A stretch of 29,232 bases of DNA from Olsenella uli (GTDB lineage Bacteria > Actinomycetota > Coriobacteriia > Coriobacteriales > Atopobiaceae). The position numbers and the translations under genes were made by a program. Under the pieces are notes generated by a model. The model had not been told where the DNA came from. It saw nothing but the letters and a program-made list of their open reading frames with translations, and did no database searches. How positions within the stretch are numbered: position 1 is the first letter of the stretch; each line of letters starts with the position of its first letter. The stretch is taken from assembly GCF_901212655.1 (NCBI RefSeq), contig NZ_CAAKON010000015.1, forward strand, positions 1-29,232. The letters run 5' to 3'. This document shows positions 3,081-3,319 of the stretch, one piece after another.

Positions 3081-3108
3081 GTGTAACGGAATGTGAGTTC
3101 TGTTGCGC
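3081..3108 (-). repeat. Inverted repeat L: candidate recombinase crossover site
   Basis: Read on the minus strand, this copy has an 11-bp arm GCGCAACAGAA, a 6-bp asymmetric spacer CTCACA and an 11-bp arm TTCCGTTACAC. The inner nine bases of each arm are near-perfect inverted repeats of each other. Twenty-two bases (3085-3106) are identical to the reverse complement of 3294-3315. The 11-6-11 layout is that of dif/Xer-type sites. Confidence 0.85.
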
Positions 3109-3128
3109 GAATTGAACTCCGCCGGCTG

Positions 3129-3138
3129 CACATATGTG
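3129..3138. promoter_or_regulatory. Perfect 10-bp palindrome inside invertible segment
   Basis: CACATATGTG is a perfect palindrome located downstream of the candidate minus-strand promoter. It may be a protein-binding site; this is inferred from symmetry only. Confidence 0.35.
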
Positions 3139-3143
3139 TTCCC

Positions 3144-3163
3144 AGCTAGGCATAATTCTAGCT
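3144..3163. promoter_or_regulatory. Dyad AGCTAG-N8-CTAGCT abutting the -10 element
   Basis: Six-base arms, perfectly inverted, are separated by 8 bp. The dyad touches the -10 hexamer at 3164-3169 and would cover the transcription start on the minus strand. This is a natural operator position, possibly for the winged-helix protein encoded in the downstream operon. That link is an inference. Confidence 0.45.
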
Positions 3164-3172
3164 ATCATACCA
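3164..3172 (-). promoter_or_regulatory. Extended -10 promoter (TGG-TATGAT), facing left as sequenced
   Basis: On the minus strand TATGAT is preceded by TGn, giving an extended -10 that needs no strong -35; indeed none is seen 17 bp upstream. In the present orientation it fires toward the 3' end of the recombinase gene. After inversion it would lie about 110 nt upstream of the ATG at 3352 and face it. Confidence 0.5.
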
Positions 3173-3291
3173 CTCACCAACAGGTTTCCCTTACACGCAA
3201 ACTAAAGATGGCCTTGAAGAAACGTACGGCTTTCCCGAACCCTTTTTAAAGCGTCTCCGCTGCATGCGGCACCCATCTAAGGAAATGCGTT

Positions 3292-3319
3292 ATGCAACAG
3301 AACTCACATTCCGTTGCGT
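3292..3319 (+). repeat. Inverted repeat R: candidate recombinase crossover site
   Basis: Arms ATGCAACAGAA and TTCCGTTGCGT flank spacer CTCACA. Arm symmetry is 9 of 11. The core is identical over 22 bp to the minus-strand reading of the left site. The copy ends 32 bp before the likely start codon of the next gene, so it would lie in that gene's 5' untranslated leader. Confidence 0.85.

Follow-up and report, generated by a model that had tools for sequence, protein, structure and literature searches.

A probable recombinase-linked inverton in Olsenella uli and the recurrence of its layout beside related tyrosine recombinases

The stretch of DNA analysed here, referred to as the window, comprises 29,232 nucleotides of Olsenella uli (contig NZ_CAAKON010000015.1 of assembly GCF_901212655.1). 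Near its beginning, a complete tyrosine recombinase gene is followed by two inverted copies of a short site, by the segment that these enclose and by two small genes, as follows:

2058-2951, + strand: complete tyrosine recombinase of 297 amino acids, a probable invertase (PF00589 and PF02899 over cut-off)
3081-3108, - strand: left recombination site, read as 11-6-11 (exact arm 3085-3106, spacer 3092-3097)
3107-3293, no strand: segment between the arms, 187 nt, with 49% GC vs 65% in the window
3127-3168, + strand: two overlapping, weak promoter-like matches (TGCACA-18-CATAAT and TTCCCA-18-TATCAT)
3292-3319, + strand: right recombination site, read as 11-6-11 (exact arm 3294-3315, spacer 3303-3308)
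3352-3645, + strand: small protein of 97 amino acids, likely the switched gene, with a signal-like N-terminus and a hydrophobic C-terminus
3642-3944, + strand: winged-helix-like protein of 100 amino acids (sub-threshold DnaD_N match, 23.8 bits, cut-off 27)

The first-pass annotation had described 3085-3106 as the exact 22-bp reverse complement of 3294-3315, and this is what is found: two 22-nt arms with 187 nt between them. By k-mer counts over the 29,232-nt window, all exact inverted repeats of at least 14 nt with 20-1000 nt between their arms derive from this one pair, and a search that allowed the site up to three mismatches returned the two window copies only, and none in 100 dinucleotide shuffles. 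Read as 11-6-11 sites, the 28-mers 3081-3108 and 3292-3319 are identical at 23 of 28 positions and share the spacer CTCACA; the near-symmetric arms claimed around this spacer are also present, with a symmetry of 9/11 in the right site and 8/11 in the left site. Arm symmetry of 9/11 is common on its own, being reached by 24 of the 29,205 28-mers in the window, and the rare feature is the identical site pair in inverted orientation. The arrangement is that of an inverton, with short inverted repeats that share an identical core around a short, mostly intergenic segment and an intact site-specific recombinase nearby, and a flip would cover about 205 bp (3098-3302). The likeness to dif/Xer sites that had been claimed holds for the 11-6-11 layout but not for the sequence, which has only 10-14 identities in 28 positions with the Escherichia coli, Bacillus subtilis and F. 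alni dif seeds, as printed in the part of PMC3025954 used here.

The recombinase is complete, as first annotated, and both of its Pfam domains score well over their cut-offs (Phage_integrase, PF00589, 73 bits, cut-off 27.1; Phage_int_SAM_1, PF02899, 35.5 bits, cut-off 22.3). Its stop at 2951 lies 129 nt before 3081, in agreement with the earlier estimate of 130 bp. None of its 11 NCBIfam matches reaches its own cut-off, the best being an XerA-like model (121.3 bits), and the protein stays far below the cut-offs for both XerC (99 vs 335.15 bits) and XerD (102.5 vs 329.6 bits). By sequence profile, the nearest solved structures are XerC-like 4a8e, XerA 5hxy and XerD 1a0p, and the PHROGs families that it matches are integrases. 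Residues R156, K178, H243, R246, H269 and Y278, which we take to be the catalytic residues, are invariant across 29 aligned recombinase sequences. A public copy of the recombinase matches it along its whole length with 99% identity, and a scan of genome contigs with the single recombinase sequence returned one Prevotella locus, 32% identical.

Relatives of the recombinase were gathered from viral contigs, where the best 80 of 116 matches to an alignment query were kept, from plasmid records, where six (H1-H5 and H20) were taken among 20 of 103 matches, and from phage records, where H31 and H32 were taken among 15 of 26 matches and H30 corresponds to locus L093. A closer alignment query of the viral contigs gave the same ten loci (L003-L012), and scans of these contigs with the single protein or the exact site gave no usable locus. 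A search for further relatives of L006 found none in the phage records and, in the viral contigs, only four that were already known. Phage matches H21-H28 lie on the deacylase gene, not on the recombinase, and four of them, taken as L083-L086, were dropped.

At each locus, a stretch of 550 nt that begins with the last 20 nt of the recombinase gene was tested for a repeat pair with 100-400 nt between the arms and a score of at least 14; L008, which has the same sites and the same segment as L006, was counted with it, and L011, which ends at the recombinase stop, was dropped. A pair directly follows the recombinase in 13 of 14 loci, window included, and a slightly looser second run with a score limit of 12 added L098 (pair score 22). 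Among recombinases at least 37% identical, 14 of the 15 distinct loci that could be tested have the pair, namely the window, L003, L004, L005, L006, L007, L009, L010, L012, L087, L088, L089, L090 and L098, vs 1 of 268 control windows taken away from the recombinase in 14 loci. Two of these results count against reading the locus in the window as an inverton: L093, whose recombinase belongs to the same clade, has no repeat pair, and the left arm in the window lies 133-134 nt past the recombinase stop, vs -7 to +38 nt for the first arm in relatives. The gap between the arms is 106 nt in L098 and 184-338 nt in the other relatives.

The pairs shown from the run at a score of at least 14 have the same central bases. 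Judged by eye, ACATAA or its complement TTATGT stands around the 6-nt centre of at least one site in 10 of the 13 relatives with a pair, and is absent from the sites of L010, L088 and L098; the window half-site TTCTGTTGC differs by one base from TTCTGTTGT of L007 and L012. A third full or partial copy of the site is seen in L089 (5745-6046), L009 (6040-6323) and L088 (5647-5966), where more than one segment could flip.

In the tree of the recombinases, the window protein falls into a clade of 29 rows (support 98/99) that holds 13 positive loci, one negative locus (L093) and 15 untested rows, and the positives outside it are L098, L014 and L036. The half of this clade that contains the window has 13 rows (support 97/87), the others being 12 metagenomic proteins available as protein sequences only. 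More distant recombinases, at most 33% identical, have a pair in 2 of 12 loci tested (L014 and L036), in a set that was hand-picked and in which L036 was chosen with its repeat already known; pairs close after the gene also occur in L037, with repeats as in L036, and in L042 and L053. The pairs of L014 (919-1223) and L036 (6837-7069) directly follow recombinases with only 25-28% identity, and such a layout may have had more than one origin.

The genes adjoining the pair differ between relatives. They include a SPFH protein in L005, a response regulator-GGDEF protein in L009, an SLH protein with VWA domains in L088 and Wzz followed by a ParA-type ATPase in L089, while in L004 an Eco57I-type methylase is the second gene after the pair. 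ParB-like genes lie about 0.8 kb further on in L007, L008 and L012, and no Pfam match was obtained for the first frames that follow the repeat in L003, L087 and L090. DNA methylases and genes of the capsule (Wzz), c-di-GMP (GGDEF) and S-layer (SLH) types are that are often phase-variable targets, and passages of PMC11892184 are in line with this. In L010, the pair is followed directly by a second tyrosine recombinase (7180-8037, + strand) and then by a BTAD-type regulator, and the switch might here control another recombinase.

This variety of neighbours also bears on another explanation of the locus, in which the sites would belong to a mobile element, as attachment or dif-type sites, and the recombinase would be its integrase. 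Such an origin is suggested by the Xer/dif-like layout, by the integrase families matched in PHROGs and by the occurrence of relatives on viral contigs and plasmids. The sites are, however, inverted, an orientation in which recombination leads to inversion and never to excision; only some 200 bp lie between them, they match the three dif seeds poorly (10-14/28), and the genes next to the pair vary among relatives. We therefore consider a mobile element very unlikely.

Evidence for inversion comes from a comparison of L006 and L012, two related viral contigs. On the left, their flanks run in parallel, with 287 of 407 columns identical vs 232 of 457 when one is reversed; on the right, the flanks match at 78-80%, likewise in the same sense. 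Between the sites, homology is seen only once one of the two segments is turned into its reverse complement (z 17.6, 134 of 197 columns identical, vs z 1.0, 113 of 229 columns, in the forward sense). Since the flanks are collinear and the segment matches in reverse complement only, one segment is flipped relative to the other. As judged from these alignments, inversion has occurred in the family, between two viral contigs rather than inside a single population, and outside the species of the window. This is the one pair among 78 segment pairs compared that shows homology in either sense, the other 77 being uninformative on orientation. In L007 (6790-7035), the flanks are collinear with those of L006 and L012 and the segment matches neither, as if it had been replaced.

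Promoters were scored with an approximate sigma-70 matrix in 13 distinct segments that include that of the window and leave out L098, each compared with 100 shuffles of its own, and the scores are uncorrected for the number of segments. An outward-facing promoter beats at least 96 of 100 shuffles in seven of these (L087, L004, L005, L009, L090, L010 and L089), and the -10 elements of these seven end 24-100 nt from the arm that they face; two point toward the downstream gene (L004 and L089) and five toward the recombinase. Scores are non-significant in the other six (the window, L003, L006, L007, L012 and L088). In the window segment, the scan gave two matches at 9 of 12 positions, each on the + strand, where shuffles gave 0.4 on average (sd 0.7), and the score of the best candidate, TTCCCA-18-TATCAT on the + strand, is reached by 9% of 100 shuffles. 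The weakness of these candidates counts against the inverton reading. On the - strand, an extended -10-like element, TGGTATGAT, was noted by eye 57 nt from the left arm, without a good -35 element.

The segment was also considered as an attenuator or terminator, a reading that was dropped on account of unremarkable folding of both strands. More broadly, the repeats could be operators of a regulator or an attenuator hairpin, unrelated to recombination, as each site is itself nearly palindromic. RNA folding of the window segment gave nothing unusual on either strand (z -0.13 to 0.54), and the scan found no terminator-like site within it; the repeat pairs are, moreover, tied to this recombinase clade, and a segment is reversed between two relatives. 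All of this argues against operators or a hairpin, which we regard as extremely improbable.

The genes that the switch would control in the window are likely the 97-aa protein and the winged-helix protein. Their genes probably form one operon, the start of the second overlapping the stop of the first. The 97-aa protein has a TP-rich middle and a basic tail after its hydrophobic C-terminus and no match over cut-off in Pfam or NCBIfam; it is likely secreted or anchored, with the anchoring judged by eye. The gene-caller start of this protein is ATG 3292 (P0124, 117 aa), within the right site. By our reading, this ATG would be lost upon inversion, and ATG 3352, which follows a purine-rich stretch, is the likelier start. 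Since the longer start lies inside the right site (3292-3645, + strand), the gene called in public records may vary with how the segment is oriented. Much further along the window, at 9091-9135 on the + strand, lies a match to the L31-Coriobacteria ribosomal protein leader (34.2 bits vs a gathering score of 33, E 0.063), just above the gathering score and the only Rfam match in the window, which is weak evidence for a coriobacterial source.

A protein search with the 97-aa sequence returned two relatives only, both near-identical and one of them frame-shifted, and this scarcity is another point against the inverton reading. A rival reading is that the locus is a real inverton that has become locked or is decaying in this species, its sites and recombinase descending from a working switch, with a target so shrunk that flipping no longer matters. 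The small size of the target, 97 aa made up of a signal-like start, a brief stretch of low complexity and a hydrophobic terminus, would fit such decay, as would the shifted frame of its near-identical public copy and the weak promoter of the window. Against it, the 22-nt identity of the two sites has been retained, the recombinase is complete and keeps the invariant residues, and its public copy is 99% identical along the whole length; a locked inverton is, in our view, unlikely.

We favour, with a probability of roughly 0.85, a recombinase-linked inverton that causes ON/OFF phase variation of the downstream operon. This reading is preferred because an exact inverted site pair adjoins an intact recombinase, because the pair recurs at nearly all testable loci with related recombinases and hardly ever in control windows, and because the L006/L012 segment is reversed between collinear flanks. 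It also draws on the clear outward promoters, in both directions, of seven of the 13 segments, on the neighbour genes of relatives, which are of types that are often phase-variable, and on the single 29-row clade shared by all positives except L098, L014 and L036. The invertible switch proposed by the first-pass annotation is thus supported, both by the recurrence of the layout (14/15) and by the opposite segments of L006 and L012. In the proposed model, the Xer-like recombinase would recombine the inverted sites 3081-3108 and 3292-3319, with strand exchange in the 6-nt spacer CTCACA, and so flip about 205 bp. The segment would carry an outward-facing promoter that, in one orientation, transcribes the operon for the 97-aa small surface-type protein and the winged-helix protein and, in the other, points back at the recombinase. 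For this strain, we infer the inversion, the acting recombinase, the promoter, the ON orientation and the target genes.

Recombinase-linked invertons are already known, and the locus in the window is a newly found member of this kind. The closest description, in the passages of PMC11892184 used here, is that of inverton group 139, with 32 of 33 members in Clostridia of the gut, a tyrosine recombinase of group 35 near nearly all members, orientation shifts measured by reads and, for two members, repeats of 26 and 14 nt that are about 205 and 227 nt apart. The recombinase-adjacent layout is the same and the spacing is like the 184-338 nt of most relatives studied here; the two families are likened by description, not by repeat motif, and may be one. 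The same passages put the median for Actinobacteriota at 14 invertons per genome, and a part of PMC5903667 reports signatures of inversion in three out of 19 species of actinobacteria; as invertons have thus been reported in Actinobacteriota, no first for the phylum is claimed. Literature searches for invertons with Coriobacteria and for recombinase-driven, invertible phase variation with Collinsella found no paper, and among the matches listed for combinations of Coriobacteria, phase variation and DNA inversion the class name appears only in an HIV microbiome review.

RecV of Clostridioides difficile is likewise a tyrosine recombinase that flips short intergenic segments controlling their neighbours (PMC5903667 and PMC7446863, in the parts used here). 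Of several distant switches, only some respond to it, whereas the window recombinase adjoins its own site pair; the two are likened by description, not by sequence comparison. PsrA-type invertases of streptococci are also tyrosine DNA invertases and, according to passages of PMC4948785 and PMC7096588, shuffle coding segments, unlike the switch in the window. The window recombinase does not group with annotated PsrA: the PsrA relative L092, annotated psrA, is 28% identical, has a type I restriction specificity gene in its vicinity, lacks a short repeat pair directly downstream of its gene and forms a branch of its own with L099 outside the 29-row clade. XerC/XerD act with near-palindromic dif sites that have a 6-nt centre, as in the window (PMC3025954, in part), but with one dif in place of two inverted sites.

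The half-clade of the window might be a lineage of dedicated, self-contained Coriobacteriia switches with GC-richer arms. In the window, the flip may control a mini-operon in which the second gene encodes a DNA-binding regulator. This proposal is tentative and rather improbable; if true, the inversion of 200 bp could affect a wider regulon beyond a single surface protein. The module is compact and portable, with a recombinase and the inverted sites that belong to it in a span of about 1.3 kb, and it is found on viral contigs, on large plasmids and in the window, attached to very different neighbour genes. Pairings of recombinase and site can now be tested within a single clade, and a gut class that has received little study gains a small surface protein that is likely phase-variable.
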